This document shows positions 43,214-59,838 of a stretch of DNA of 64,000 nucleotides, piece by piece (position 1 is the first letter of the stretch; each line of letters opens with the position of its first letter). The stretch is from contig SVPE01000002.1 of assembly GCA_015066015.1 (NCBI GenBank), positions 124,001 to 188,000 on the forward strand, in the 5' to 3' direction. Source of the stretch: Oscillospiraceae bacterium. GTDB taxonomy: Bacteria > Bacillota > Clostridia > Oscillospirales > Acutalibacteraceae. Both the position numbers and the translations under genes were made by a program. The notes beneath the pieces were generated by a model. That model saw only the letters and a list, made by a program, of their open reading frames with translations, searched no databases and was not told the origin of the DNA.

Positions 43214-43987
43214 TTATTCATCACTTTCGGATTGATTTTTAGCCTTAAGTTTACGAAGAATTTCATCCTTACTGCTTTGCTTTTTCTTAAGGTTATTCAA
43301 AATAGAATCAACATTTTCGGTTGTGGTAACACCGGGATAATCATGCTGAAATTCAAGGAGTGTTTCCTTGGATTTCTTTTCTTCATCTGAAACTGCTTTA
43401 TAGAGCTGTTCAAAGTTACCTTTTTCCATTGTGCCTTCAATGAAATCTCTTGAATCAGATGACAGCTTATCCCAACTGCTGTATAAATTTGTTACAGCTG
43501 TTTTTATCATTTCCAATGTTATCGGCTTATTCCGCTTCTCATGTTCAGCAAGAATACCTACGATATCGGACAAATCGTTCTTATACTTTCTGCCCGCCAT
43601 AAGCTTCATTGCGATAAGATATTCAGCTGAAACTGTTCTCACCTGTAATACATTAGAGAATTCTTTATAGTGAACCGAATATGCTGACAGTTTAGGAGTA
43701 TAAGATGCTGTTTTCATAAAGTCTGCATTTAACCATCCGTTAGGAAGATTAAATTTATCACCGACTTTATTTATAGCTTCCTTCATTGAAGAAGCAGCCT
43801 TGATAACGGCATCCACATCCGTTGTCATTTCACGGAAGCCATAGTTAGCAAGAATAGCCGCACCGCCGATTAAGATAATCTCCGAGGGCATTCCCTTACC
43901 GACTAATTTTCTGTATTCCTTACCAAGCTCTTTTAAATATAAATCAAGATTTTCTTTATTAAAGGTATTCTGATTATCAGTAGACAT
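43214..43987 (-). CDS. Nucleotidyltransferase-like toxin candidate (DUF6036/AbiEii type)
   Basis: A 257-residue protein. The region IILIGGAAILANYGFREMTTDVDAVI near residues 37-62 has the GG...A...G..R.TxDxD pattern of minimal nucleotidyltransferases such as AbiEii and DUF6036 proteins. The C-terminal part is a charged helical tail. Its start overlaps the end of the HTH gene by 11 bases, the usual order of antitoxin then toxin. A toxin-antitoxin or abortive-infection role is inferred. Confidence 0.7.
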   Translation of the reverse strand: MSTDNQNTFNKENLDLYLKELGKEYRKLVGKGMPSEIILIGGAAILANYGFREMTTDVDAVIKAASSMKEAINKVGDKFNLPNGWLNADFMKTASYTPKLSAYSVHYKEFSNVLQVRTVSAEYLIAMKLMAGRKYKNDLSDIVGILAEHEKRNKPITLEMIKTAVTNLYSSWDKLSSDSRDFIEGTMEKGNFEQLYKAVSDEEKKSKETLLEFQHDYPGVTTTENVDSILNNLKKKQSSKDEILRKLKAKNQSESDE

Positions 43988-44546
43988 TTCTTACCTCGCT
44001 TTCTATGATGTTAAATCTTAAAAATTCAGGTATAGCTTCATTCATTGCTTTGCTCTTTATCTTGTTATCTTTTGAAACCGCTGTCGCTGCAACAATACTT
44101 GAGGGATACAGAGTTTCAGAGAGCTTTTGCTTTCTCAGTTCGCTATACTCTTCACAGTAAGGCACATCATTAACTCTGCTGACATAGTCAAGCATTGCAA
44201 GAAGATAAAAGCATTCCGCATACCAATGACGGTTATAGTAATCAAATATTTCGTTACTTTCAAGCGTATCAATGATGAAATCAATATCGCCGAGTTCCTT
44301 TAACTTATGGCAAACATTACTCTTAAAAAGCTCAAAACTTGTTCGTTTAACAAAACAAGGCTCCAGCAATTCTTCCATAGTAACGCCCAAAACTTTTGAT
44401 AATTTATACACTGTTTCAGCACTACATTTTTTTAGCTCAGCCTTGCCCGAAAGAATATCGGTCAGAGTTGTATAGGGAATATCACTGTTTTTCGACAAAC
44501 GGTATCTTGAAATATTTTTGCTTTCCATTATCTGATTAAGCATCAT
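43977..44546 (-). CDS. XRE-type HTH regulator, antitoxin candidate
   Basis: A 189-residue protein. Residues 1-60 form an XRE helix-turn-helix (MLNQIMESKNISRYRLSKNS, DIPYTTLTDILSGKAELKK). The remainder is helical and unknown. I place the start at the ATG at 44546, seven bases after AGGTG; a GTG three codons earlier overlaps that site. It is cotranscribed with the overlapping nucleotidyltransferase gene and probably represses the pair. Confidence 0.7.
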   Translation of the reverse strand: MMLNQIMESKNISRYRLSKNSDIPYTTLTDILSGKAELKKCSAETVYKLSKVLGVTMEELLEPCFVKRTSFELFKSNVCHKLKELGDIDFIIDTLESNEIFDYYNRHWYAECFYLLAMLDYVSRVNDVPYCEEYSELRKQKLSETLYPSSIVAATAVSKDNKIKSKAMNEAIPEFLRFNIIESEVRNVY

Positions 44547-44576
44547 TGTAATCACCTGCCTTCACTATTATTATAT

Positions 44577-44714: not shown

Positions 44715-44836
44715 TTACATAATATCGAGGTGCCTACAAGATTAGAAATCCTGCTTGGTAACAGCAAGTGATTATATTATACAGAGAATTTAATAAAAAG
44801 GCATTATCGACTAAAAAAATCGATAATGCCTTTTTT
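44715..44836 (+). ncRNA. Possible small RNA ending in a strong terminator
   Basis: TTACATAAT at 44713-44721 could be a -10 element. Downstream, GATTAGAAATC and CTTGGTAACAGCAAG can form small hairpins, and GGCATTATCGA/TCGATAATGCC followed by six T residues is an excellent terminator (44795-44836). No ORF fits. The terminator is also symmetrical enough to stop minus-strand transcripts. The RNA itself is a weak proposal. Confidence 0.3.
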
Positions 44837-44939: not shown

Positions 44940-45236
44940 TCACCATAGTTTCCAGGAGGATACTTCATTATAGTTTCCGCCTGTATGAACTACTCCATGA
45001 CGATCTCCTAACACATTCTCTTCAATCGTATAGTATTTACCATCTCCGGTTGATACAACTGTTCCATCAGTTTTTAGACCGACAGCATAATTCCAGTGAA
45101 TATCAAAATCGGAATCCGCAGAAGTATCTACCCATACAATATTCGTCCATGATTCAACTTCGCTCTTAATGTCAGCATTCTGTGAATAGACATATCCTAT
45201 TTCTGATTCATAGTAAATGTCATCACTTACATATTT
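44940..45236 (-). pseudogene. C-terminal fragment of an RCC1-repeat protein
   Basis: An open stretch with no start codon that encodes SWTNIVWVDTSADSDFDIHW, NYAVGLKTDGTVVSTGDGKY and a terminal NEVSSWKLW. VGLKxDGTVV and the SWKL ending match the RCC1-like repeat proteins encoded further along the island. It begins out of frame just where the DUF6273 gene ends. It is the remnant of another family member. Confidence 0.65.
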
Positions 45237-47697
45237 AAGAGTTCAGATCAATCCACAAAGCGGGGCGGACGGCATCATTGCTGTGATCGACACCGCCACC
45301 CGACTCAAAAATATCTCCATCACTGGCGACATTAACGGCAAGATTCTGACGGGAACCGGGCGACCGCAGCCACCAAAACCACAGGTCGAGACTGATAGTT
45401 CCATGAGCGCCATTGGCAACCGCATATTCTGTAGCCTCACACTGTCTTGCACCATTGTAGCTGAAATATTTTTTCGCTTCCATGATGCTAAGCAAGAACA
45501 CTTGATCCTGCGTTGTGTTGCCGGGATTTGTGCTGTATAAAGGATTTTCATCTGCTGACACCGTAACAGTAGGAATCATAGCCTTTTCATTGGTAGAAAA
45601 TGCAGAGTTTATAAAATTGCTGTTTAACCACTTACGAAGTGTGCAAGTTTCCCAAGTAACATCGGTATAACTTGTATTGTATGGCTTGCAATCAAGAACG
45701 TATTTACTAATTACCAATGCTTTTCCGTCTTTTACTTCAAGAACAAGCCATTCAATGTCTTCTTTGCCGTTTGAGCTATTGTTATCCTGTTCATATGCAC
45801 CGAAATTGATATAGCTTCCAATTTTTATATTCTTTAATTGATCTTTGTTTTTTTGCAATCGAATATCTCCCGCTTTATCTGCAACATCTTTGTAATCTCC
45901 AAGTTCCTCAAAGATACTGTATGCTTCATCAAGTTTTCCAGCATCCATCAATGCAATGGCATCGTTGTATTTGCTATTAGGAATAATAACAGTATTCAAA
46001 ACGATAATAAAGGCGATAATAGCGCAAACGATAGGTGTTGTAATAATTACTATCTTCTTGTTCCGCTTAGCGATGCGTTCTGCTTCTTTACGCTCGATTT
46101 CGGCTTTGCGTTCTTTTTCCAAACGCTCGGCTTCCGCCCTTGCTTTGATTTCCTCTATTTTCTTTTGACAGGTGCAAATCTTTTCATCGGCATCCTTCCA
46201 ACCGGAGATGGATTCAAACAGCTTTATGGCAGATTCGTAATTGGATATAATCTCCCCGGTCATTTTAGATTTACCTTCGGAAAGAATGGCATCCTTTCGT
46301 GCAACTTCCGCTTTCTCATAGCACGACTGTGCAAGAACGGCAGAATCCTGATATTCATCAATAGATTCAAAAAGATGAGCCGCTTCCTTATAAGCACTCT
46401 CGGTATTTGCCGCAGACATTGCATTTTTTGCACGGGTGTAGATACTATCAAGACGGGTATTTTCATTACGGGTATTGATATGCTCTATGTAGCCGGCAAG
46501 TGCCGTTTTTAACTTTTCGTCGGCAAAGCGAACGGCTTTTTGGTAGTTGTTGCTATGATCAAATGGTTCTGCTTGGTCTTTTAAATTTTCCTGTTTTCTT
46601 ACCCTTAATTCTGACAAAAGTTTGCCTAAATATGCCAGAGCATTTTCAGGATCGATATCCAGCACCTTTTCGCAGTATTCGTTTGCAGATTTCGAATCAC
46701 CGTCTTCAATGAACATAAAAACTCTTTTAAGAAGCGAGTCAACAGTAGCTCTGTCACCGCTGTTTACAACTACTCTTTCCCCTATCTGTGCAGAACTTTC
46801 TTTTTTGCCGATAATCTTCTCAATACCTCTAAGCAGATCCTGAACAGCACCAACCTTGCCCATATCCTGAGCCTGAAGACGTGCAAATTCCTTAGGCATA
46901 TCGTAGGCGTCTATATTTTTGTAGCATGGAATAAGTATCTTCTTTTCGCCCTTTGCAATCAGCTGTAAAAATCTTGACCACTCGTTCTTCACCCATACAG
47001 CGTTGTAATATTCGTAATCTGTACCAAAAGCAAGCATAACCTTTGCACTGTTAAGTGCTGCAAATATATAAGGCTCATACTCCTAACCAAGCTTATCTTC
47101 AAGAGTTATTCTTGAGAAAAACACACGATAACCTTTATCTGTAAGCTCGGTATAAACATCCTGAGCAATAACGCTGTCTATTGTTCTGTCGCCTTTTTCA
47201 TCGGTTTCCTTGTAGCATATGAAGATGTCATAAGGCTCTTCCTTACTTGAAACCTCGATGATTGACTTGCGGAGTTCCTCGATTGCCTTAGCCTCTTCTC
47301 GATAAACCTTTTTCGCAACAGCATCGGCGTTTTCCATTACAAATTCAAAATTCTCGCTATCGAGCACACTGTCAAAAGATGAACGATGACATGTGGGAAT
47401 TTTTTTACCTGTTTTGGGATCATCAACGTATTCGATACCGTAGTTACAGAGAATAAGCCCCCAATAGGCCTCTGCTTCTTCGGGAAACTCTGCAACGATG
47501 CTTTCATATACGCCTGCAGCCTTATCAAATTCACAAGCAGCACGAAGCTTGTTTGCTCTGTTGAAAAGGTTAGTAATAACCTCATCCTTTTTTGAAGGCA
47601 CTGTCTGCTTTGAGCCACAGTACTCACATTCTGCAACAGTGATATCTTCGCTTATTTCAAGTGCGCCACCGCACATTTTACATTTAAATATTGCCAT
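45235..47697 (-). pseudogene. Zinc-ribbon/TPR/TIR protein with C-terminal DUF6273, split by an in-frame amber codon
   Basis: The frame is open for 821 codons from the ATG at 47697 except for one TAG at 47083-47085 (codon 205), inside the TIR domain between LEDKLG and EYEPYIFAAL. Order: zinc ribbon (CKMCGG...CEYCG), TPR-like helices, TIR (YDIFICYKE to the catalytic-type glutamate in WVKNE, about 156-280), helical region, membrane helix (IVIITTPIVCAIIAFIIVLN), and DUF6273 (WFWWLRSPG...AVRPALWI). The paralogue has Met at the amber position. Either a fresh nonsense mutation, read-through, or re-initiation at the Met 16 codons on. Confidence 0.8.
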
Positions 47698-47714
47698 GAT
47701 TTTTTCCCCTCTTA

Positions 47715-49304
47715 TCAATAATCTTTTTCTTTACCGCAGTTGGTACACACTTTTTTAAATACACCATTGAATGTTCCGCCGCAGTGTTGGCATCGTTTTT
47801 CTATGCGATACATTGATTTCTGATACTCTTCCCTTTTTCGCTTGTCTTCAATTACCAATTTTTCCTTGGCAAGGTGTGCTTCAGGCATTCTTCCTTTTTG
47901 CTCTTCTTCAAGATTACCAAAATCATCAAAAAGTTTCCATTCAGATATAACAGATGCATCTTCGTCGATGTCACCTGCATATACAATAGTTCCATCTGCT
48001 TTTAAACCCACTGTGCACCTTCCTCCTGCAAAAACAGCCAGAATGTTTTTCCAGTCCGAAACTTCACATTGTCCGGTTTTATTATCACCAGCCGCTACAA
48101 CAGTACCGTCCGCTTTAAGACCAACCACGTGATATGCTCCATATGAAGCAAAAACTATATCCTGCCATTCTTCACAATCTCGCAGTTCCCATTCACTCAA
48201 TTGATTCCGGACGACTGTTCCGTCCGCTTTTACACCCATTATATTGTTCTCACCTGCTGCAACAGAAACGATATCCTTCCAATATAAATACTTATCGCCG
48301 CCCAATAATGATCCGGCAACAACAACAGTTCCGTCAGATTTAAGACCTACAGAATAATGTTTTCCGGCACCAATGGCTACTATATCCTTCCACTCAGAAA
48401 CAGCACTCTGCCTGTAATCACGATGATAATCCTCCGTGCCTAAAAACTTCGTTGCAACAACAGTTCCGTCAGATTTAAGACCTATAGTATGCTCATAACC
48501 TGTGGCAATTGCTACTATACCTGTCCACTCCGAAACAGCACATTGTCCGCAGGAATCGCTTCCGCACGCAACAACAGTACCATCGGCTTTCAGCCCTACC
48601 AAATGACCGGTACTATTTGAAACTGCAATTATATTGCTCCACAAAGATGCATATTTCCATGTTGATGTTTCGACTACTGTGCCATCAGAATTCAATGCAA
48701 CTATATCTCTTTGACAGGAAACCATATTAGTTGCCGGTCTGCGTTTTTCTCTTATAAATTCAAGTCTTTTATTGTTATCCTGAAGATTTTTTTCTTTTAT
48801 TGCTTTTTCTTCTGCTGCCTTTCTTGCCTCTTCCTCAAAATATTCCTCTGCCTCTTTTTCGTAAGCTTCTAACTCTTTAAGTAATTTTTTGTCAGCAAAC
48901 TTCTTCGCTTTGAGATAATATTTATTATCAAGTTCTTCCGCATAAGCAAAGCAATCTATTTCGCATACTTCTACATCGGCCATTGCAAGACCAAGATAAG
49001 CCTCAACGCATTCAGCATCAATATCAAGAGCCTTATTGAAATGAGTTTTTGCCTCATCAAAATCCTCGTCTTCAAGAGCAAGCTTGCCGCGCTTTAAGAA
49101 ACTTTCAAGGTTAACACTACCCTCAACCTTCACAGTACCGGTAACCTCTACTGTTCCTTCGACCTGGACGATGCCTTTAATTTCCTGTATTTTGGCTTTT
49201 GCCCATGCGGTATCATATTGAAGGCCGCAATATTCACATTCAAAAATGCCGTCAGGCTTACCGACGAGCTTACCGCCGCAAACCTCACATTGTAACATTG
49301 CCAT
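47715..49304 (-). CDS. Zinc-ribbon protein with RCC1-like repeats, no TIR domain
   Basis: A 529-residue protein. The N-terminal zinc ribbon (CEVCGG...CEYCG) is followed by VEGTVEVTGTVKVEG, a TPR pair around 70-110, a long charged coiled coil (about 140-200), then six to seven RCC1-like units each with VGLKADGTVVA and a SEW-x-x-IVAI segment, and a C-terminal zinc ribbon (CQHCGG...CTNCG). It resembles the 775-residue protein with the TIR domain removed. It may act as a sensor or scaffold for the TIR partners. Confidence 0.75.
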   Translation of the reverse strand: MAMLQCEVCGGKLVGKPDGIFECEYCGLQYDTAWAKAKIQEIKGIVQVEGTVEVTGTVKVEGSVNLESFLKRGKLALEDEDFDEAKTHFNKALDIDAECVEAYLGLAMADVEVCEIDCFAYAEELDNKYYLKAKKFADKKLLKELEAYEKEAEEYFEEEARKAAEEKAIKEKNLQDNNKRLEFIREKRRPATNMVSCQRDIVALNSDGTVVETSTWKYASLWSNIIAVSNSTGHLVGLKADGTVVACGSDSCGQCAVSEWTGIVAIATGYEHTIGLKSDGTVVATKFLGTEDYHRDYRQSAVSEWKDIVAIGAGKHYSVGLKSDGTVVVAGSLLGGDKYLYWKDIVSVAAGENNIMGVKADGTVVRNQLSEWELRDCEEWQDIVFASYGAYHVVGLKADGTVVAAGDNKTGQCEVSDWKNILAVFAGGRCTVGLKADGTIVYAGDIDEDASVISEWKLFDDFGNLEEEQKGRMPEAHLAKEKLVIEDKRKREEYQKSMYRIEKRCQHCGGTFNGVFKKVCTNCGKEKDY

Positions 49305-49336
49305 GATTTTCTCTCCCTTTTTTATACACAGATATT

Positions 49337-50050
49337 TTATCTTCTCTTGTAAACCTTACACTGTGCATTTCTGTCCTCAAACAGGTCAATTATCTGATCT
49401 GTGAGTGTCTTTGCCTCATCATTCTCACCTGCTCTTACAAGATCACCGAGCTCACCGATTTTATCTGTAATTTCACTTTCAATTGCATAAAGCTCCTCGC
49501 AGGATACAGGGTCACTGTATTTTGCAGTGTCGCTGAGCTTTTCAAGAAGCTTAAGAAGGTCTTTATCATCAACACGGCGCATAATACTGTCGATGTTTAT
49601 ACGGAAAGTCTTGACCTGAACGGTCTGACGCTCTTCCTCTTCTTCAAGCTTTATAATTTCTTCTTTGGCTGTGTCAGTAAGAAGAACAAGGATAATGAAT
49701 ACACCGAGAATAATCACGCTCACCACATATATAATCCAGCCGGGGAAATTCTCAATAAAGTTAGCCGCAACCGAGAAAACAAGTGAAACACCAAGCTGAA
49801 CAGCAAGGTAAATAATGCCCATTCTGAAAACAGGGAAGGCATAAACCTTTTTGCGGAGGGTTTCTGCTCCGTTAGCTGCAAGAAGAACAATACCTATCTG
49901 AAGCAGAATTGCAACCGTACCGAATACATATGCACCCCAGAAAGTCGGTGTATGCTTAAAAGGTATTGCAAAACTGATAACATTATAAATTACAAGTACA
50001 ACAGCAAAAATGATGAGATTTTTGATTGTATTTTTATCGAGCTTTTTCAT
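49337..50050 (-). CDS. Four-helix membrane protein with cytoplasmic coiled tail
   Basis: A 237-residue protein with four hydrophobic helices (about 11-31, 40-60, 76-96, 104-125), then a highly charged cytoplasmic tail (KLEEEEERQTVQVK onward) of helices. I do not recognise the family. It starts six bases after the SPFH gene ends, so the two are likely made together and may interact at the membrane. Confidence 0.6.
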   Translation of the reverse strand: MKKLDKNTIKNLIIFAVVLVIYNVISFAIPFKHTPTFWGAYVFGTVAILLQIGIVLLAANGAETLRKKVYAFPVFRMGIIYLAVQLGVSLVFSVAANFIENFPGWIIYVVSVIILGVFIILVLLTDTAKEEIIKLEEEEERQTVQVKTFRINIDSIMRRVDDKDLLKLLEKLSDTAKYSDPVSCEELYAIESEITDKIGELGDLVRAGENDEAKTLTDQIIDLFEDRNAQCKVYKRR

Positions 50051-50056
50051 TTTTTA

Positions 50057-51931
50057 TCATTCCTTTCCTTTACCGCAGTTGTCACAGAATTTACCTGTTA
50101 TGTCTTTTCTGCCGCAGGAGCAATCCCATGTTGTGGGTTCTTCGGGCTTCTTTGCACCACAGTTTGAACAGAAGTTTCCTGTTATACCTTTATTACCGCA
50201 GGCACAGTCCCACGCTTTGGGAGGCTCGGGCTTTTTAGCGCCACAGTTTGAACAGAAATTACCTGTTATACCCTTATTACCGCAAGGACAGTCCCATGTT
50301 TCAACGGGAGCAGGCTTTTTCGCACCGCAGTTACTGCAGAAATTACCTGCAATACCCTTTACACCGCAAGCGCAGTCCCATGTATCAGCGGCAGGAACAT
50401 CACCTGCCACAACATTGCCGAAGCCTGCACCTAAATCGGCAGCACCGCCCATAATGGGGTTAAGAGCTTCCTTTGTCATACCGATAACACCGCCCATTGC
50501 ACCGAGAGCAACACCGAGTGAAGCAACATCGCCAAGACCGCCCATAGCTCCGCCGCCTTCACCGCCTGTCAAACCGTTCTGCATAGCTTCCATACCAACC
50601 ATACGTGCAGTTTCCTGCTGATAGGTATAACCCTTAGCCTGCATTTCTGCTGCCTCAGCAAATGCCTGTGCCTTATATGCTTCTGCCTCTGCCTGTGCTT
50701 TGATTTTGAGTGCTTCAGCTTCACCCTGAGCACCGACAAGCTTCAACTGTGCTTCAGTCTGTGCTTCAATAATTTTTCTGCCCTGTGCGGCTTCTGCTTC
50801 TGCTTTTCTTACCTCTTCTTCACGTACACGGAGAGTTTTCTCTGCGAACTGCTGACGGAGTCTTCTGTAGTTCGGGTCATCATCAGGAGTAACTATATTG
50901 GTGATATAGAATTCAGGCATAGTAAGACCGTACTCCTCAAGAGTTTCATTGAGAAGAGCTGTCATCTTTTCTGAAATAACATCAATGTGCTCATCAATTT
51001 CGAGAATATTAATGCTGTTCTCTTTGATAACACGGGCAAGGTTAGCCTTAACCTTATTCATAATAAGAGCCTTGAACTTACCTACAACGAGAGTGATACC
51101 GAAAATCTCTGCACCGTTGACTTCGCTCTGAGTAAACATACCTGCAGTACCGACAAGCTTAAGCACAAGCTTTCTTGAATTGCTGACACGGAGGTTGAAT
51201 TGACCGCAGGCACCGATTTCAATATGTAAGCCTGAAGCAGGGTCAAAGAGACGCACCTTTGAATCTGTGCCCCACTTAATGCCCATCTGAGTTGTCATAT
51301 TGATGAAATAAACCTCTGAATGGAAGAATTCATCGGCATTTGTGGGTAATTTGTAAAGCGTTTCGAGAGCAGGAAGATTCTGTGTTGCAAGAGTATAACG
51401 ACCTGCACCGAAAAGGTCAAGAGCCTGACCGTCACGGAAGAAAAGAGCCTCCTGGCTTTCGTGAACAATAAGCTGTGAGCCGAGATTGAAATCTTCAATA
51501 GGATGCTTCCATACAAAGACATCGTTTTCGCCCTCATATTTGATTACGCTTGCAAGTCCCTGATTTTTAACTTCTTCTTTGGCAATCTGCTTCTGAACAT
51601 CAATAACGGTTTCGCAGAGAGGACAGGTATATGTAGAGGCGTTTTTTGCAGTTATGAGCGCACAAGAACATGAAGGGCAGTGCATTTCAATTGCATTTTT
51701 CATACTCTCCACAGTATTAATAGGCTCCTTACAGACGGGACAAAGAGCCTTTTCACCCTTTGACTGATCAAAAAGAACAGTGTTGTGACAGTGAGCACAT
51801 TCCTTTGCCGTTATGCTGTCACGGGCTACAGAGATTTCATAACCGCAGGTACACTGCACGTGACGGTTAAATACTTTTGAAGCCATAGTATAGTTATGAC
51901 ACTGGGGACATTCAATTACAAATTTAGACAT
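50057..51931 (-). CDS. SPFH/Band-7 domain protein with N- and C-terminal zinc ribbons
   Basis: A 624-residue protein. Residues 1-130 hold several CxxC pairs (CPQCHN, CAHCHN, CPVCKE, CPSCSC, CPLCET). An SPFH domain of the virion-core/YdjI type follows at about 150-370, then the Glu/Ala-rich helix expected of stomatin-like scaffolds (EEEVRKAEAEAAQGRKIIEA onward), a Gly-rich hinge, and four tandem zinc ribbons of the form WDCACGxKGIxGNFCSNCG. SPFH proteins build membrane-associated ring scaffolds. It starts one base after the SIR2-like gene. Confidence 0.85.
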   Translation of the reverse strand: MSKFVIECPQCHNYTMASKVFNRHVQCTCGYEISVARDSITAKECAHCHNTVLFDQSKGEKALCPVCKEPINTVESMKNAIEMHCPSCSCALITAKNASTYTCPLCETVIDVQKQIAKEEVKNQGLASVIKYEGENDVFVWKHPIEDFNLGSQLIVHESQEALFFRDGQALDLFGAGRYTLATQNLPALETLYKLPTNADEFFHSEVYFINMTTQMGIKWGTDSKVRLFDPASGLHIEIGACGQFNLRVSNSRKLVLKLVGTAGMFTQSEVNGAEIFGITLVVGKFKALIMNKVKANLARVIKENSINILEIDEHIDVISEKMTALLNETLEEYGLTMPEFYITNIVTPDDDPNYRRLRQQFAEKTLRVREEEVRKAEAEAAQGRKIIEAQTEAQLKLVGAQGEAEALKIKAQAEAEAYKAQAFAEAAEMQAKGYTYQQETARMVGMEAMQNGLTGGEGGGAMGGLGDVASLGVALGAMGGVIGMTKEALNPIMGGAADLGAGFGNVVAGDVPAADTWDCACGVKGIAGNFCSNCGAKKPAPVETWDCPCGNKGITGNFCSNCGAKKPEPPKAWDCACGNKGITGNFCSNCGAKKPEEPTTWDCSCGRKDITGKFCDNCGKGKE

Positions 51932-51932
51932 T

Positions 51933-52805
51933 TTAGTTTTCTCCTTTTAATTTTGTTTTTATATCATCGATTGCACAATTATAAAATTCAATATAGCTAT
52001 TGTCGAAAGGTAAAAAATCGATTATTTCAACAGCATAAGCTTTTAACAAAGCTCTTTGTTCATCTGATATGTCTTTTGACGGTTGGTAAAAATATATTTT
52101 AGTGTCAGGAAAATGACGTTTTTTACAACATATTAACCACCAGATATCACTTTCGTTAAAATCCAATCCAAATCCTAACATATACACATTCTTTGAAAGA
52201 AAAGAATCCACCCAACTGTATTCAGTAAGTTCAGTATTGTTCTTTCTGGAATATGTATATCTTCTCATAAAAGAAGGTAAATAATCCTGAATTTCTCTTA
52301 ACAGTTTACCATAATAGTAATTACCCATAATGATTGATGATGCAGTAGCGATATCACCATGTATGTGCCAGATTCTTTTATCGCATGATTTAGGTTCATA
52401 AGTTTTAAAAAGATTGAATTTTTCATCTTTTGCAGAACACTTTTTAGTCAGTTTTCTGATTTTCCTGTAACTATGCATTGAATTTCGCACACCCGCTGTC
52501 TGCTCGATTTCAAAAGTATAATTTGCTGTTATTATGTTTTTAACAGGTAATTCGAGAATGCTTTCAATAAAATTCTTCTGTTCATCTGTAATATTAAAAT
52601 TCAATGCAACAGAAATATCCTGCATCGCTTTATCAACCTTGTCTCCCGTAGCAACGATTATCTGCATCGGCATAGGAAGTGATGACTTTTCATTGTATGG
52701 TAACTCCGAATTGTTTTTTTCATATATGTTCTTAACTAAATCTGTCCACGACGCTTGATTAAAAGCTCTGTTGATTCCGTTACCTAAAAATACCACACCT
52801 GACAT
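51933..52805 (-). CDS. SIR2-like domain protein
   Basis: A 290-residue protein of the bacterial SIR2_2-like type. The NAD-binding start is VVFLGNGINRAF with SWTDLV; the conserved NITANY-type motif is IITANYTFEIE; IWHIHGDIATASSIIMGNY carries the catalytic-region histidine; and YMLGFGLDFNESDIWWLI matches the C-terminal NAD-site strand. In anti-phage systems such domains degrade NAD+. Its place between a TIR gene and an SPFH gene suggests a common process. It follows the 775-residue TIR gene by 16 bases. Confidence 0.75.
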   Translation of the reverse strand: MSGVVFLGNGINRAFNQASWTDLVKNIYEKNNSELPYNEKSSLPMPMQIIVATGDKVDKAMQDISVALNFNITDEQKNFIESILELPVKNIITANYTFEIEQTAGVRNSMHSYRKIRKLTKKCSAKDEKFNLFKTYEPKSCDKRIWHIHGDIATASSIIMGNYYYGKLLREIQDYLPSFMRRYTYSRKNNTELTEYSWVDSFLSKNVYMLGFGLDFNESDIWWLICCKKRHFPDTKIYFYQPSKDISDEQRALLKAYAVEIIDFLPFDNSYIEFYNCAIDDIKTKLKGEN

Positions 52806-52821
52806 TTTTATCCCTCTCTAA

Positions 52822-55149
52822 TCAATAATCCTTTTCTTTACCACAAACAGAACATTTTTTAGTGAACAGACCTTTGAAAGTGCCTCCACAGTGTTGGCAG
52901 AGACCTTGTGAACGCAAATTAGCTTTTTGTTGCTGTATTGCTGCTTCTGCCATTTTTTTTGCCGTTACTGCCATTTTAGTTCTTTTTTCTTCTTCTAAGT
53001 TGTCATAATTATCAAACAGTTTCCACTTTGAAACATCACACTGATTGTGGTCATTTTTACCAACCGCTACAGCTGTACCGTCTGATTTTAGCCCTACTGT
53101 GCGATCAAATCCTGCAGCTATTGCTACAATGTTATTCCACTTTGAAACATCGCACTGATTGTATTCATCATAACCAACCGCTACAACTGTACCGCCTGAT
53201 TTTAACCCTACTGTGTGATACCAGCCTGCAGCTATTGCTACAATGTTATTCCACTTTGAAACATCGCACTGATTGTATTCATCATAACCAACCGCTACAA
53301 CTGTACCGTCTGATTTTAACCCTACTGTGTGATGATAGCCTGCAGCTATTGCTACAATGTTATTCCACTTTGAAACATCGCACTGATTGAATTGATTTCT
53401 ACCAACCGCTACAACTGTACCGTCTGATTTTAGCCCTACTGTGTGACCACAGCCTGCAGCTATTGCTACAATGTTATTCCACTTTGAAACATCGCACTGA
53501 TTGTAGTAATCATAACCAACCGCTACAGCTGTACCGTCTGATTTTAGCCCTACTGTGTGATTTTCGCTTGCAGCTATTGCTACAATGTTATTCCACTTTG
53601 AAACATCGCACTGATTGTATTTATTATAACCAACCGCTACAACTGTACCGTCTGATTTTAACCCTACTATGTGACTTCCGCCTGTAGCTATTGCTACAAT
53701 GTTATTCCAGTTCAAAACATCGCACTGATTGTCGCTGTTTTCACCAACCGCCACAACTGTACCGTCTGACTTAATCCCTATGACGTTAGTAGATTTCACA
53801 CAAATCAGATTTTTTGCATTGCTGATTTTCTTGCGCATTGGAGCCAATCTGAGCATCGCTTCTTCAGATTCTCTTTGTTTTCTTGTTTTTTCCTGATTAA
53901 TTTCATATAGAAAATCTGCTTCAAGCTTTTCAAGAGTTGCAAGCAAGTTGTTATCTGCAAACTGTTTAGCTCTTTGATAGTTTTTGTTTTGCAATCGCAT
54001 TTTAAAAGAATCTTCTGTCAATGTTTTGAAGATGAAATCTCTTGCTGTTACAACCTTTTCATCAATCATAGCTAAACAAAGATATGCCTCGGCACATTCG
54101 GCATCCATATTAAGCACCTGTTCAAAAAAGTCTTTCGCCTTACTCCATTCACTATCTTGAATTGCCATTCGACCACGCTTTAAAAGAGCTTCCATGTTCG
54201 GACCACCTGATGTTTGGTTTACAATAACAGTTTCTGTTGTCTTTGGAGCGTTTGTTTCAGATACAATTTTCTCAACACCTCTAACAATATCCTGCACTGC
54301 ACCAAGTTTGCCTAAATCCTGTGCTTGCAAACCTTTGAATTCATCAGGCATATCATAAGCATCAATATCCTTAAAACACGGAATAAGCACCTTTGACTTG
54401 TCCTTTGCCATAAGCTTGAGGAAGCGTGACCATTCATTCTTCACCCATACTGCGTGGAAATACTCATACTTTGTACCGATCGAAAGCATAACCTTTGCAC
54501 TGTTGAGAGCTGCAAATATGTAAGGCTCATACTGCATACCGAGTTTATCCTCGAGAGTTACTCTTGAGAAGAAGACGTTGAAACCCTTTGCAGTAAGTGC
54601 ATCATAAATATCATAAGCAAGAACACTGTCAACTGTTCTCTCTCCCTTTTCGTCTGTTTCCTTATAGCAGATGAAAACATCATAAGGCTTTTCGTTTTTA
54701 CTGACAGCAAGAATTTCACCCATAATTCTGTCGATTTCTCTTGCCTCGTCACGGTAAACCTTCTGTGCAACAACATCTGCATATTCAAGAGCAAGCTCAA
54801 AGTTTTCATCCTTCTGCAGACTTTCAAAAGAAGCTCTGTGGCAGGTGGGAATCTTCTTTGCTGTTGCGGGGTCGTCAACATACTCGATACCGTAATTGCA
54901 AAGACAGAGACCCCAGTAAGCTTCAGCCTCCTCGGGAAATTCAGCAATTATATTTTCATAAATGCCTGTAGCCTTATCAAACTCACTCGCCATACGAAGT
55001 CTGTTAGCACGGTTAAAAAGATTGACCTTCTTTTCGTTATCTGCATTTGGTACAGTCTGTTTTGTGCCACAGTAATCACATTCAACTATTTTAATTTCTT
55101 CAGTAACCTCAAGGTCACCGCCACACATTTTACATTTTAAAATTGCCAT
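52822..55149 (-). CDS. Zinc-ribbon/TPR/TIR protein with seven RCC1-like repeats and C-terminal zinc ribbon
   Basis: A 775-residue multidomain protein. Cys6, Cys9, Cys24 and Cys27 form a zinc ribbon; residues 40-150 are TPR-like; 156 to about 280 is a TIR domain (YDVFICYKE, FFSRVTLEDKLG, and Glu239 in WVKNEW at the NADase glutamate position). A second TPR region spans 330-400. Then 38-residue RCC1-like units (VGLKSDGTVVAVGxNxxNQC, DVSKWNNIVAIAAG) fill about 460-720. A zinc ribbon (CQHCGG...CSVCG) ends the chain. TIR domains with this glutamate often cleave NAD+; a beta-propeller could sense a ligand. Confidence 0.85.
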   Translation of the reverse strand: MAILKCKMCGGDLEVTEEIKIVECDYCGTKQTVPNADNEKKVNLFNRANRLRMASEFDKATGIYENIIAEFPEEAEAYWGLCLCNYGIEYVDDPATAKKIPTCHRASFESLQKDENFELALEYADVVAQKVYRDEAREIDRIMGEILAVSKNEKPYDVFICYKETDEKGERTVDSVLAYDIYDALTAKGFNVFFSRVTLEDKLGMQYEPYIFAALNSAKVMLSIGTKYEYFHAVWVKNEWSRFLKLMAKDKSKVLIPCFKDIDAYDMPDEFKGLQAQDLGKLGAVQDIVRGVEKIVSETNAPKTTETVIVNQTSGGPNMEALLKRGRMAIQDSEWSKAKDFFEQVLNMDAECAEAYLCLAMIDEKVVTARDFIFKTLTEDSFKMRLQNKNYQRAKQFADNNLLATLEKLEADFLYEINQEKTRKQRESEEAMLRLAPMRKKISNAKNLICVKSTNVIGIKSDGTVVAVGENSDNQCDVLNWNNIVAIATGGSHIVGLKSDGTVVAVGYNKYNQCDVSKWNNIVAIAASENHTVGLKSDGTAVAVGYDYYNQCDVSKWNNIVAIAAGCGHTVGLKSDGTVVAVGRNQFNQCDVSKWNNIVAIAAGYHHTVGLKSDGTVVAVGYDEYNQCDVSKWNNIVAIAAGWYHTVGLKSGGTVVAVGYDEYNQCDVSKWNNIVAIAAGFDRTVGLKSDGTAVAVGKNDHNQCDVSKWKLFDNYDNLEEEKRTKMAVTAKKMAEAAIQQQKANLRSQGLCQHCGGTFKGLFTKKCSVCGKEKDY
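53028..53790. repeat. 114-bp tandem repeat array (RCC1-like units)
   Basis: GCTATTGCTACAATG starts at 53117, 53231, 53345, 53459, 53573 and 53687, a strict 114-bp period equal to 38 codons. The units are almost identical in DNA, which points to recent expansion. Confidence 0.9.
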
Positions 55150-55164
55150 AATATTTTCTCCTTA

Positions 55165-56703
55165 TCAATAATCCTTTACTTTGCCGCAGACAGAGCATTT
55201 TTTAATAAGCACACCTTTAAAATCTCCTCCGCAATACTGACAAAGATTATATTGTCTGCGTTGTCCCATAATACCAAATGTTTGCTGAGCCATCTGATTA
55301 TTCTGATATTGCTGTTGCTGCTGAAATTGCTGAGCTTCCTGCCAACGTCGGCTTTCTGCCGCATTTGAAGTAACAGTAAAGCTATAATAAAACCACTGGG
55401 AATCATTTACTGAAAACGCAGCCTTGTAATTACCCGTAGGTACTGCTGAACCGTCCTCGCCTCTTAAAACCCAACCCTGACTTATTTTGTCATAATCTGG
55501 TGCCCAGGAAATGTCTGTATTGTGATCCAGAATCTGCAAGCCTGAAGAATTGAATATATAAAATTTCAGATGTATCGTCGAATATTGACAAAGCTTCTGC
55601 TTTGAAACAGCCAAGAAAAATCTTATATGACGGAATTGGTCGAGATTTATAACATTGCTGTATGTACCCTTGGGCCACAGCTCATCACGAACAGTTCCCA
55701 TAGAAGAAACATTGTTGATTATAACCGGCGGCTTACGGATTTCTTGTTTCACAACCTGTTGGGTGCTTTTTTGCACAATAGGAGTCTGAATCGGTGCAAC
55801 AGGTGATATAGGTGTAATAATTTTCAATACACCTCTGACAATATCCTGCACGGCGCCAAGCTTACCTAAATCCTGTGCCTGTAATGCTTTGAATTCCTCG
55901 GGCATATCGTAAGCATCAATATCCTTAAAGCAAGGAATAAGCACCTTTGATTTGTCCTTTTTCATAAGTTTGAGAAAACGTGACCACTCATTCTTAACCC
56001 ATACTGCATGGAAATATTCATACTTTGTTCCGATTGAAAGCATAACCTTTGCACTGTTGAGTGCCGCAAAGATATAAGGCTCATACTGCATTCCGAGCTT
56101 GTCTTCAAGCGTTACTCTTGAGAAGAAAACATTAAAGCCCTTTGCGGTGAGTGCATCGTAGATATCATAGGCAAGTACACTGTCAACTGTTCTTTCGCCT
56201 TTTTCATCTGTTTCCTTATAGCAGATGAAAACATCATAAGGCTTTTCGTTTTTACTGATAGCAAGAATTTCACCCATAATTCTGTCGATTTCTCTTGCCT
56301 CGTCACGGTAAACCTTCTGTGCAACAACATCTGCATATTCAAGAGCAAGCTCAAAGTTTTCATCCTTCTGCAGACTTTCAAAAGAAGCTCTGTGGCAGGT
56401 GGGAATCTTCTTTGCTGTTGCGGGGTCGTCAACATACTCGATACCGTAATTGCAAAGACAGAGACCCCAGTAAGCTTCTGCTTCCTCAGGAAATTCAGCA
56501 ATAATATTTTCGTAAATGACTGTAGCCTTATCAAACTCACTCGCCATACGAAGTCTGTTTGCACGGTTAAAAAGATTGACCTTCTTTTCATTGTCGGCAT
56601 TAGGTACTGTCTGCTTTGTGCCACAGTAATCACATTCGACGATTTTCATATCTTCGGTAACCTCAAGGTCACCGCCGCACATTTTACATTTTAAAATAGA
56701 CAC
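55165..56703 (-). CDS. Zinc-ribbon/TPR/TIR protein with a distinct C-terminal domain
   Basis: A 512-residue paralogue. Its first ~290 residues (zinc ribbon, TPR, TIR with Glu in WVKNEW) are nearly identical to the downstream 775-residue protein, also at DNA level. After a Pro/Gln linker (PISPVAPIQTP) comes a different beta-rich domain of about 130 residues (WPKGTYSNVINLDQF; LRGEDGSAVPTGNYKAAFSV), a Gln-rich segment, and a zinc ribbon (CQYCGG...CSVCG). The same front end joined to different back ends suggests modular effector or sensor swapping. Confidence 0.8.
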   Translation of the reverse strand: MSILKCKMCGGDLEVTEDMKIVECDYCGTKQTVPNADNEKKVNLFNRANRLRMASEFDKATVIYENIIAEFPEEAEAYWGLCLCNYGIEYVDDPATAKKIPTCHRASFESLQKDENFELALEYADVVAQKVYRDEAREIDRIMGEILAISKNEKPYDVFICYKETDEKGERTVDSVLAYDIYDALTAKGFNVFFSRVTLEDKLGMQYEPYIFAALNSAKVMLSIGTKYEYFHAVWVKNEWSRFLKLMKKDKSKVLIPCFKDIDAYDMPEEFKALQAQDLGKLGAVQDIVRGVLKIITPISPVAPIQTPIVQKSTQQVVKQEIRKPPVIINNVSSMGTVRDELWPKGTYSNVINLDQFRHIRFFLAVSKQKLCQYSTIHLKFYIFNSSGLQILDHNTDISWAPDYDKISQGWVLRGEDGSAVPTGNYKAAFSVNDSQWFYYSFTVTSNAAESRRWQEAQQFQQQQQYQNNQMAQQTFGIMGQRRQYNLCQYCGGDFKGVLIKKCSVCGKVKDY

Positions 56704-56720
56704 TGTTTTTTTCTCTCCTT

Positions 56721-56909
56721 TTAAGCTTCCGTGATTTCAATATTTTCTGCTGCAAATTCGAGACAAAGCTGAATTACTTCATTTCTCGTTCTGCCGCTGC
56801 CTTTTGCAATTTCATCAAGCCTTTCAACGAGGTCAATAGGCACTCTTGATGAAATTACAGTCGTTTCTCCACGGTACTTTTTTGATTTGATTTCAAGCTT
56901 CTTTCCCAT
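56721..56909 (-). CDS. Ribbon-helix-helix regulator
   Basis: A 62-residue CopG-like protein. The start at 56909 is chosen because AAGGAG lies nine bases upstream. TTVISSRVPIDLVERLDEIA forms the beta-strand and first helix, and SGRTRNEVIQLCLEF the second helix. As the first gene of the TIR/SIR2/SPFH operon it is the obvious candidate to control it; a palindrome lies in its own promoter. Confidence 0.75.
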   Translation of the reverse strand: MGKKLEIKSKKYRGETTVISSRVPIDLVERLDEIAKGSGRTRNEVIQLCLEFAAENIEITEA

Positions 56910-56941
56910 AAAATCAATCTCCTTATAAAAATCCACAATTG

Positions 56942-56970
56942 ATTATACTACAATTGTATACACATTTCAA
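56942..56970 (-). promoter_or_regulatory. Promoter and candidate operator of the TIR/SIR2/SPFH operon
   Basis: On the minus strand TTGAAA, a 17-bp spacer and TATAAT. The perfect palindrome TACAATTGTA (56949-56958) lies in the spacer, where a ribbon-helix-helix dimer could block polymerase. Confidence 0.7.
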
Positions 56971-57339: not shown

Positions 57340-57698
57340 ACTACAAAAATTTAAAGAACTGACATCTCTGCACATTTTTTGCATCGATTGTAGTAAGTTT
57401 TCGGTATTTTACACCCCTCAAAACCCCAGTAAGACAAAACTTATTGAGAACTACATTTTCACACACTCATTGTGGGGAAAAGAATAACCAGTTTTTTGAC
57501 CCTTTCATGTAACTTCACATAACCTCACTTAACTTGAAAAACCTTGATTTTACAAGGTTTCTGACAACTCGCAAAAAATGTAACCTCACGCAACTTCACT
57601 TAACTTTTCAATCGTTTGGGGTAAATTTGGGGTAAAACGGGGTAGGTTTTTTGGGGGCATATTTACGGTTAAATCCGGTGGTTATTTTTTGACTATTA
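57340..57698. repeat. Right att-like direct repeat of the accessory island
   Basis: Matches 42740-43120. The core inverted repeat is perfect here (AAACCTTG at 57539-57546, CAAGGTTT at 57553-57560) with the same 10-bp arm units (AACTTCACAT, AACCTCACTT) on either side. The repeat overlaps the truncated end of kptA. Confidence 0.75.
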
Positions 57699-57840
57699 CA
57701 GTAGGTTTTGCACCTTTAATCAGTTCATTTACATCAGCCCAACCGTTCTCGTCGAGGGTTATTCCTGCTGCTTGCGGTTTATGCCTTAAAAGCATACTTA
57801 TATAGCAACTGATTTTGATTAAGTCTTTTTCTTCAGGCAT
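57682..57840 (-). pseudogene. kptA: RNA 2'-phosphotransferase, N-terminal fragment cut at the right repeat
   Basis: Fifty-two codons: KISCYISMLLRHKPQAAGIT followed by LDENGWADVNELIKGAK. The RHKP and GWADVxEL motifs are those of the KptA/Tpt1 N-terminal winged-helix domain. Full KptA is about 180 residues; the frame ends within the att-like repeat (VIVKK then stop), so the catalytic domain is gone. It follows the HAD fusion gene by 24 bases. Recombination at the repeat probably removed the 3' part. Confidence 0.75.
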
Positions 57841-57864: not shown

Positions 57865-59838
57865 TTACATCGGAGTAAAGAAAACAACATCTATGATGTC
57901 TTTTTCTTCAAATACCTCAAACGCCCATTTGATAATGTCAAACTCGTTCTTTTTAATCCATGGTGTGACATTTTCTTCAATAAGAACCTCAATCATATCG
58001 TCAAGCATTCTTCTGAACTGAGGTGACTTTCCATTAAGGGTTGCCTCAGCAAGGTCATCGTCGGTAATATTGAGCACAAGGTTCATATGATTCTTTACAT
58101 CATCCTTTGTAAGCACTCCTCTACCTGTCACTTTACCAAGCAAAGCATTGAACTTTTCTGTAAGCACCTCAAATACCTTGTCTGCATAAATATTTTCATT
58201 ATCGGTAAGCGAGTAGTTATAAAGGGTCTTTGATATATTTCTTTCTCTTGAAAGAGCGAATGCGAACTCTACGGAAGCATTATAATACGAAGCGTCGAAT
58301 CTGTCCTTTCCGCCTGCTTCAATTTTGCTGTAACAGCTTTCAGTATAGCCTTTTTTATGAGCATCAAGATAATCAGTTATATTTTTATAGTCATATGTGA
58401 TTCTGTCATCCGTACCGGCGTAAAAGAAGCTTATCTTAACACCAAAAACAGCTGACATCATTTCAGCGACCTCTATGATATCCAAACTCGATAAATTAAA
58501 ATGATTACATTTGAATGTAATATATGTACCGTCATTCAGATCCGTTTCGATTTCTTCTATTCCGTCGGTTACTAATTTCACATAAGTCATGCACTTATTC
58601 TTTCCGTTTCTCACACTTTCGAAGCAAACATAGTCGGAAAGATAAATAAGAGAAAAGAGTGAGAAATCACCGTCAGTGTTAGCCGTACTTTTTGAATCAT
58701 TTGAACTACACTTATAAAACGGAGTAGTGGGATATTTCTTGTTTTTGTTACAATTGAATGTAAGGTTCTTATCATAGTCACAGGAAGCAAAAAGCTGAAC
58801 GTCTGATGCTCTTTCTACAAGGAACTCTGTATTATCGGCACAATAAATCTCGATAAAGCTATCCTTTCTTTTTACAGAGATATAATCAGTAATTCCGTTC
58901 TTAGCTGCATTGACAAAGATTAAAAGAACTCGATAAAGCATCTCTTTAAAGGGCTCTGCTCCGAATATACTTCTGGGGCTCACGGCAAGCTTCTTGCATA
59001 ACGCCTTGCGCATTTTGTACGCTTTTACATCCGGAACCTCTTCGTAAGCCAAGAAGGGGTTGTACATCATCTTACCTGATAAATGAATACAACCGTCGTC
59101 TTCCGAAGTAGGGTCAGACACATCTATGATGTATTTGCTGTCCTCACCGAATACAGCTTTAACAGCAGCTTCAAGTGCTAACGTTATTTTGTAATTCTTC
59201 TTAATGCGCCCGATTTTATATAAATCGCAATTGAGAAGTAAGGTCTTGCTATCATTGAAATAGCCTTCTGCGTCAAGATATTTGAACTGGTCGAAGTCTA
59301 CTTCATCAATAATATAATCGTCCTTGACGAGGCACTTAATCTCATCCCACTCTTTATCAATATCCCTGTTGATTTCTGTGAAAACAGGATGTAAAATGCG
59401 ATATGCTTTATCACAAGCCTCATCGTCAAGACCCTTTGCATCAGAGGTCTGAACAAAATGGCTTTTGTCAAATCCGTAATCGACATCATCTATGATGACA
59501 TAATTTTCGACCTTACTTTTGTACCTTTCGAACCAATCATCGATCTCAGCCTTTCTGTCGTTGCCGGAAAACTCAAGCGTTTTACCGTATATAGCGACTC
59601 TGTGTTTCGCAAAAATATCATTGATATAATCTCCGATAGGGCTCACCTGTGAGAGCCCGTGATTCCAATACACTCTCCAGGTAGAGGTCAAAACTATCAC
59701 GGATCCCGTTGACTTAACAAGCTTTTCGAGACGACTCATATGCACTTCAGAGATAGGCTTGTCAAAGTATTCTTCATTTTCAAGCCTAGTCTTTTCTGTA
59801 TTTAAAACACCGTCTATATCAAGGAATATTACGTTCAT
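57865..59838 (-). CDS. HAD phosphatase domain fused to a degenerate GyrB/GHKL ATPase-like domain
   Basis: A 657-residue protein. Residues 1-150 are a HAD domain of the kind found in RNA-repair proteins (FLDIDGVLNT with the nucleophile Asp, VLTSTWR, IIDDVDYGF). From about 290 to 480 the order of segments follows the GyrB ATPase: LLIFVNAAKNGITDYISVKR (N-box position, catalytic Glu lost), LFASCDYD, then FSLIYLSDYVCFESVRNGKN and DGTYITFK. The GyrB relation is my reading of a weak pattern. Neighbouring kptA fits an RNA-repair context. Starts behind GGAGAG. Confidence 0.6.
   Translation of the reverse strand: MNVIFLDIDGVLNTEKTRLENEEYFDKPISEVHMSRLEKLVKSTGSVIVLTSTWRVYWNHGLSQVSPIGDYINDIFAKHRVAIYGKTLEFSGNDRKAEIDDWFERYKSKVENYVIIDDVDYGFDKSHFVQTSDAKGLDDEACDKAYRILHPVFTEINRDIDKEWDEIKCLVKDDYIIDEVDFDQFKYLDAEGYFNDSKTLLLNCDLYKIGRIKKNYKITLALEAAVKAVFGEDSKYIIDVSDPTSEDDGCIHLSGKMMYNPFLAYEEVPDVKAYKMRKALCKKLAVSPRSIFGAEPFKEMLYRVLLIFVNAAKNGITDYISVKRKDSFIEIYCADNTEFLVERASDVQLFASCDYDKNLTFNCNKNKKYPTTPFYKCSSNDSKSTANTDGDFSLFSLIYLSDYVCFESVRNGKNKCMTYVKLVTDGIEEIETDLNDGTYITFKCNHFNLSSLDIIEVAEMMSAVFGVKISFFYAGTDDRITYDYKNITDYLDAHKKGYTESCYSKIEAGGKDRFDASYYNASVEFAFALSRERNISKTLYNYSLTDNENIYADKVFEVLTEKFNALLGKVTGRGVLTKDDVKNHMNLVLNITDDDLAEATLNGKSPQFRRMLDDMIEVLIEENVTPWIKKNEFDIIKWAFEVFEEKDIIDVVFFTPM

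Follow-up and report, generated by a model that had tools for sequence, protein, structure and literature searches.

The DNA considered here (the window) is a stretch of 64,000 nucleotides from a gut bacterium of the Oscillospiraceae, positions 124001-188000 of the second contig (G000:C2, SVPE01000002.1) of a genome assembled to 2.38 Mb in 42 contigs and 91% complete. It contains an operon of eight genes in which TIR and SIR2 proteins are encoded together with an SPFH protein, a membrane protein (MEM) and a zinc-ribbon RCC1 protein (Zn-RCC1). With a probability of about 0.53, we interpret this locus as a membrane-anchored TIR receptor system residing on an SPFH/MEM platform similar to that of YdjI, which would consume NAD and probably protect the cell from phages. 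The interpretation is carried by the composition of the operon, the conservation and co-occurrence of its core, an invariant glutamate of the TIR modules, the swapping of C-termini and the targeting of one relative by a diversity-generating retroelement (DGR), all of them read directly from the sequences. The features of the operon are as follows.

56970-56942, minus strand: promoter-like site TTGAAA-17-TATAAT before the RHH gene, 11 of 12 consensus positions, a pattern match alone
56721..56909, minus strand: RHH, ribbon-helix-helix protein of 62 amino acids (aa) (PF01402, E 4.8e-5)
55165..56703, minus strand: TIR1, 512 aa, GTG start; zinc ribbon, TPR, TIR, beta-rich C-domain, C-terminal zinc motif
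52822..55149, minus strand: TIR2, 775 aa; TIR1-like N-module, RCC1 repeats, C-terminal zinc motif (TIR_2, RCC1_2)
51933..52805, minus strand: SIR2, 290 aa, stand-alone SIR2 domain (SIR2_2, E 2.6e-6)
50057..51931, minus strand: SPFH, 624 aa, soluble Band-7 protein (PF13421, E 8.2e-40)
49337..50050, minus strand: MEM, 237 aa; four transmembrane helices followed by a helical C-terminal domain
47715..49304, minus strand: Zn-RCC1, 529 aa; zinc ribbon, TPR-like part, RCC1 repeats, no TIR (RCC1_2, E 4.3e-21)
45235..47697, minus strand: TIR3, interrupted; zinc ribbon, TPR, TIR, coil, one transmembrane helix, DUF6273 (E 1.6e-30)
47083..47085, minus strand: TAG codon lying in frame within the TIR domain of TIR3
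44942..45232, minus strand: degenerate RCC1-like remnant 3' of TIR3, seen by eye in the translation, limits approximate
44790..44836, minus strand: terminator-like hairpin with a T run at the operon end, seen by eye and absent from the automated site listing

As had been proposed in an earlier, sequence-only reading of this DNA, the eight genes share one direction and are closely spaced: RHH, TIR1, TIR2, SIR2, SPFH, MEM, Zn-RCC1 and TIR3 follow one another on the minus strand (56909-45235) with gaps of 17, 15, 16, 1, 6, 32 and 17 bases, and a purine-rich stretch resembling a ribosome site is visible by eye 5' of every gene start. The Pfam matches are RHH_1, TIR_2 (in TIR1 and TIR2), SIR2_2, Band_7_1, RCC1_2 and DUF6273. 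That reading had also placed zinc ribbons on almost every protein, which overstated them: paired CxxC motifs are present in TIR1, TIR2, SPFH, Zn-RCC1 and TIR3 only (5/8), and the RHH, SIR2 and MEM proteins contain none. Further corrections concern the RCC1 repeats and the last TIR gene. The RCC1 repeats are found in TIR2 as well as in the separate, TIR-less Zn-RCC1; the final TIR protein ends in DUF6273 and is broken by the TAG codon. The remnant behind TIR3 is possibly a leftover of C-terminal exchange.

TIR1 and TIR2 are 95% identical across their first 300 aa; at the nucleotide level the identity is 91% over 897 nt, after which similarity is lost until the zinc tail. The domain has a TIR fold, and its model is nearest to SPARTA and next to the TIR domains of plant L6, MyD88, AbTir and SARM1. 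Glu239 of the W-V-x-N-E-W motif, which the sequence-only reading had singled out, is invariant in 28/28 aligned TIR modules (TIR3 is outside the alignment) and in 27/27 full-length proteins not fetched by the motif, a set largely the same as the aligned one. We take this residue to be the catalytic glutamate of TIR NADases. TIR domains can also act as scaffolds, and SPFH proteins organise membranes, so that the TIR domains here could be non-catalytic assembly modules of proteins that chiefly organise membrane domains; the preservation of the glutamate argues against this explanation, which we regard as quite improbable.

TIR3 is read in two frames, 47083-47697 and 45235-47037. Pfam TIR_2 matches neither half, and the TIR part is identified through its resemblance to TIR1 (66%). 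Few genes in this genome end with TAG: 9/231 of those called in the window and loci L157-L175, TIR3 included. Among the other eight, the two that were examined can be extended in frame, and inspection by eye suggests ordinary pairs of genes. A nonsense mutation or an assembly error is a likelier cause of the TAG than recoding.

The association of the core genes was followed in two nearly separate samples, 200 genomes of the family and 391 of the class, with G000 and no fewer than six family members in common. Zinc-ribbon TIR proteins (Zn-TIR; E<1e-50 in the family, E<=1e-30 in the class) and MEM (E<1e-20 and E<=1e-20, respectively) are found in 18 and 22 of the family genomes, with both in 16 (Fisher 6e-17), and 14 of these 16 carry the two within 10 kb on one contig. 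The class sample yields 21 genomes with Zn-TIR, 20 with MEM and 15 with both, adjacent in 14; with G000 removed, MEM accompanies 14/20 Zn-TIR genomes (Fisher 2e-17). All 19 genomes with an SPFH match at E<1e-70 to that of the window possess MEM. The TIR loci fetched from named genome records, the best 78 of at least 534 matches, contain both SPFH and MEM in 41 cases, always on the strand of the TIR gene (41/41) and in 39 of the 41 no more than 100 bases apart by tblastn ends; among loci with full flanks the proportion is 17/28. The recurrent unit in these genomes is thus a soluble zinc-finger SPFH protein, a four-helix MEM and zinc-ribbon/TPR/TIR proteins. The sequence-only reading had named lack of co-occurrence elsewhere as its own refutation: SPFH, MEM and zinc-ribbon TIR do co-occur, but SIR2 proves to be a rare accessory. 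The complete set of eight genes is present in no fetched locus, the closest being L083 (TIR/RCC1 protein, SIR2, TIR, SPFH and MEM), as would be expected of a chance operon of unrelated genes. The co-occurrence and adjacency in both samples refute such an origin for the core, though not for RHH or SIR2 taken singly, and for the locus as a whole it is hardly credible.

The SPFH protein has five CxxC motifs at the N-terminus and an array of four at the C-terminus, and hydropathy reveals no transmembrane helix in it; the lack of such a helix together with the C-terminal zinc motif matches the YdjI type. MEM is modelled by AlphaFold2 with a pLDDT of 87.8, shows four transmembrane helices by hydropathy and retains 9 invariant columns in an alignment of 13 rows. 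YdjI of B. subtilis is described as a soluble SPFH protein which reaches the membrane via YdjG and YdjH and recruits PspA (PMC8581546), and the role of platform that the sequence-only reading had assigned to SPFH agrees with this precedent. SPFH-MEM pairs also occur apart from Zn-TIR, in 11/13 loci of one fetched set, and 8 of these 11 carry another gene with an N-terminal zinc ribbon. The platform therefore seems to be host to zinc-ribbon cargo, TIR proteins being one class among others.

Two further observations concern this platform. In L066 (1339-3823) two TIR-less zinc-ribbon cargo proteins are encoded, which carry the C-terminal domain of ribosomal protein L7/L12 and domain 2 of EF-Tu, respectively; it is possible that these housekeeping domains are decoys. 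At L180:6518-8164, L181:5963-7603, L182:7220-8734 and L183:2557-4071 MEM is extended at its C-terminus by a fusion that adds one more helix. Pfam identifies the fused ends as DUF6273 for L180 and L182, where TPR is also weakly matched, and BLAST does so for the other two; of the helices belonging to MEM itself, one falls under the hydropathy threshold in L182 and in L183. Such fusions possibly link anchor and sensor.

The main rival to the receptor interpretation arises from the same precedent. According to it, SPFH-MEM senses membrane damage in the way that YdjI-YdjG-YdjH does for PspA, and the TIR proteins and other zinc-ribbon cargo respond to stress as effectors or by making a signal, without specificity for phages. 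The nearest described platform is indeed pspA-ydjGHI of B. subtilis (PMC8581546), SPFH-MEM is found with TIR-less cargo, and enrichment of defence genes among the neighbours is not clear among the matches listed: PADLOC gives at least 78 families among 150 neighbour genes and at least 55 among 145 control genes, and they are scattered. However, no PspA-type Pfam match is found in the operon proteins, and exchangeable C-termini with one DGR among them (described below) are better suited to changing ligands than to a fixed stress cue. An envelope-stress system is for these reasons unlikely, though the most serious of the alternatives.

The C-termini of 135 TIR proteins comprise 40 DUF6273-like, 24 RCC1-like and 71 other ends. 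The kinds seen are DUF6273 (lectin-like), RCC1, MORN and LRR, and unassigned ends are the majority. In the window, TIR2 bears RCC1 repeats and TIR3 DUF6273. A resemblance of DUF6273 to the C-type lectin fold found in DGR targets is reported (PMC10743442). Exactly one transmembrane helix, called with a 19-residue hydropathy window, lies between TIR and DUF6273 in 19 of the 40 DUF6273 types and none in 21. In 19/19 of the one-helix proteins lysine and arginine are more numerous before the helix than after it (means 6.7 vs 1.7), so that by the positive-inside rule the TIR domain is predicted to be inside the cell and DUF6273 outside. TIR3 has this TIR-helix-DUF6273 layout although it is broken, with the helix at residue 329 of its 3' part. 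RCC1 types show one such helix in 8 cases of 24 and none in 16.

In one relative the DUF6273 end is targeted by a DGR. This locus, L096, comes from a metagenome-assembled genome (MAG) of an uncultured Clostridiales bacterium, and in it an SPFH gene stands beside a gene for a zinc-ribbon TIR-DUF6273 protein. The element is located as follows.

L096, 12442-12549, 15598-15705 and 17373-18434: DGR, with its variable region in DUF6273 of the zinc-ribbon TIR protein

A stretch of 108 bases within the DUF6273 part is repeated 3 kb downstream. Mismatches between the copies fall at the 28 template adenines in 16/25 cases, the remaining 9 being distributed over the other 80 positions (Fisher 3.6e-6). 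A reverse transcriptase gene is located 3' of the repeat (RVT_1, E 4.9e-23); the nearest NCBIfam models, group II intron reverse transcriptase and Drt3a, remain below cut-off, and its GxxxSQ motif is typical of DGR enzymes. Reverse transcriptase, template repeat and adenine-biased variable repeat, the components of a DGR, are thus all present. A second TIR protein is likely targeted in L200:456-2476 (genome G238), where 19/19 mismatches of a repeat pair are at template adenines and the reverse transcriptase is related to that of L096 (53%). The DUF6273 protein targeted there shares 51% identity with the TIR3 end; its start is lost at the contig end, and TIR is not visible. Reverse transcriptases related to that of L096 at 1e-15 occur in 5/37 Zn-TIR genomes, none on the contig of a found Zn-TIR, and three DGRs among those five genomes hit other targets. 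RVT_1 has no match in the 91% complete G000, and hence no DGR reverse transcriptase was found for the operon of the window. That variable C-termini serve as sensors, as the sequence-only reading had suggested, is in keeping with module swapping and with this DGR-targeted relative.

The SIR2 protein is rare: it occurs in 4/200 family genomes, 2/78 fetched TIR loci and 2/37 other Zn-TIR genomes, a match at 1e-10 being absent from the remaining 35. L042, L083 and L123 likewise have its gene next to one for Zn-TIR, and the pairing is therefore recurrent yet accessory. The GNG motif, N95, H147 and H149 are invariant in 6/6 aligned SIR2 proteins, and the sequence-only reading had likewise pointed to a SIR2 histidine; N95 and His147/His149 are presumably the catalytic Asn and His. 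This adjacency invites a Thoeris-like explanation, in which SIR2 is activated by cyclic ADP-ribose that the TIR proteins produce as a messenger. Weak profile matches to ThsA and ThsB point the same way. For SIR2, PADLOC gives LmuA (3.7e-8) and ThsA (8.5e-7), both in the N-terminal part only, and the nearest PDB profiles are weak (ThsA 0.024, KomC 0.043); TIR1 matches PADLOC ThsB at E 0.0012 and ThcB4 with 23.2 bits (cut-off 220). But the ThsA match covers profile positions 23-176 of 478, no SLOG/STALD half is matched in the 290-aa protein, whose sole Pfam match is SIR2_2, and nearly all other Zn-TIR genomes lack it. Such signalling is very unlikely here. Membership in Thoeris itself was rejected, no SLOG/STALD part being matched in SIR2 and TIR1 matching the ThsB and Thc models too weakly.

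For a receptor system the following mechanism may be inferred. MEM, through its four helices, would tether a soluble SPFH oligomer to the cytosolic side of the membrane, by analogy with YdjI, and the zinc-ribbon/TPR N-modules would dock TIR proteins and other zinc-ribbon cargo on SPFH. Each TIR protein would sense by its own exchangeable C-terminus, in the cytosol for most RCC1 types and many others, and outside the cell where DUF6273 follows a single helix. Binding of ligand would cluster TIR domains on the platform and lead to cleavage of NAD+, by which the infected cell would be killed or arrested or a signal would be made. Oligomerisation is reported to be required for TIR activation (PMC13174449), and the SPFH oligomer could supply it. 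SIR2, where present, would be a second NAD-consuming effector. RHH, probably the operon repressor, would hold the operon repressed; its homologues are found in 15/78 relative loci, and in 11 of these the homologue precedes a TIR or SPFH gene by 80 bases at most.

A bolder version of this interpretation is possible, though we hold it as doubtful: a repertoire resembling Toll receptors, with cytosolic TIR domains, sensors that are exchanged among lectin-like, RCC1, LRR and housekeeping-decoy kinds and in some receptors displayed outside on a single membrane helix, clustering by SPFH/MEM, collapse of NAD+ and, in some lineages, hypermutation by DGRs. As part of this equally doubtful joint reading, the hypermutated repertoire would be a set of receptors adapting by targeted mutation.

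Several results weigh against the receptor interpretation. SPFH, MEM or both are missing from 37/78 loci, many of them on short contigs. A strong Zn-TIR is not beside MEM in 11 genomes (4 family, 7 class), and only 3 of these (G174, G175 and G209) have MEM elsewhere, so that use of the platform by orphan TIR proteins is weakly supported. L096 itself has SPFH and no MEM match. One of the three TIR genes of the operon is broken, relatives of TIR1 are absent from the viral contigs searched, and the neighbours show no clear defence enrichment among the matches listed. The topology depends on the hydropathy calls. The platform, to judge from the loci free of TIR, may have had an original job other than TIR work.

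Other features of the window are peripheral. A short frame (57682-57840) beside a 657-aa HAD_SAK_2 protein (57865-59838) looks like a truncated KptA/Tpt1 RNA 2'-phosphotransferase. At 43214-44555 a helix-turn-helix gene overlaps a DUF6036 nucleotidyltransferase gene, perhaps as a toxin-antitoxin pair. Two 458-aa open reading frames (31320-32696 and 35379-36755), each in a carboxylase-type gene set, have translations that look identical; either one copy arose recently by duplication or the pair is an assembly repeat.

If the receptor interpretation is true, the system would be a bacterial counterpart to the TIR-NLRs of plants and the Toll receptors of animals, sharing three traits with them: a conserved TIR end, swappable sensors and activation driven by assembly. 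SPFH proteins would gain a place in immunity, a natural set of sensor domains would be available for pairing with phage ligands, and targeted hypermutation of bacterial immune receptors would become testable. The records of L089, L120, L128 and L145 name a strain and bear no MAG label, and cultures may therefore exist.

Related arrangements have already been described: sensors diversified by DGRs and coupled to TIR effectors, conflict systems that contain variable domains (PMC7159879), and RCC1 repeats in a TIR protein of Dictyostelium (PMC13142454). A system combining SPFH with TIR is described in none of the titles, abstract openings and passages seen of the full-text literature searched, whose coverage is poor for most subscription journals. 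The operon resembles pspA-ydjGHI in that YdjI, likewise soluble and of the SPFH type, has a zinc-finger motif towards the C-terminus, relies on membrane proteins encoded in its operon and recruits a soluble effector (PMC8581546); it differs in having no PspA and, as partners, zinc-ribbon TIR proteins, and the likeness proposed between MEM and YdjG/YdjH is one of role. With Thoeris (ThsA SIR2-SLOG plus ThsB TIR) it shares TIR and SIR2 domains within one operon, whereas its SIR2 is SLOG-less and rare, and it has an SPFH/MEM platform and several TIR proteins with modular C-termini. SPARTA TIR-APAZ, AbTir and SARM1 differ from the window proteins, which have exchangeable C-termini and in which no Argonaute, ARM or SAM domain is seen; SPARTA membership was rejected, as the operon proteins have no short Argonaute or APAZ Pfam match. 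The DGR-diversified antigen sensors of multicellular bacteria, as presented in PMC10907252, combine C-type-lectin targets with TIR and other conflict effectors and in this are like L096; the sensors presented there are STAND, CHAT and vWA-MoxR systems, whereas L096 has a single zinc-ribbon-TIR-DUF6273 protein beside SPFH. In architecture, the 19 proteins predicted to have an outer ligand domain, a single helix and an inner TIR recall the animal Toll-like receptors. The order of domains is reversed here and the sensors are mostly lectin-like instead of LRR, and the resemblance is one of analogy, not homology.

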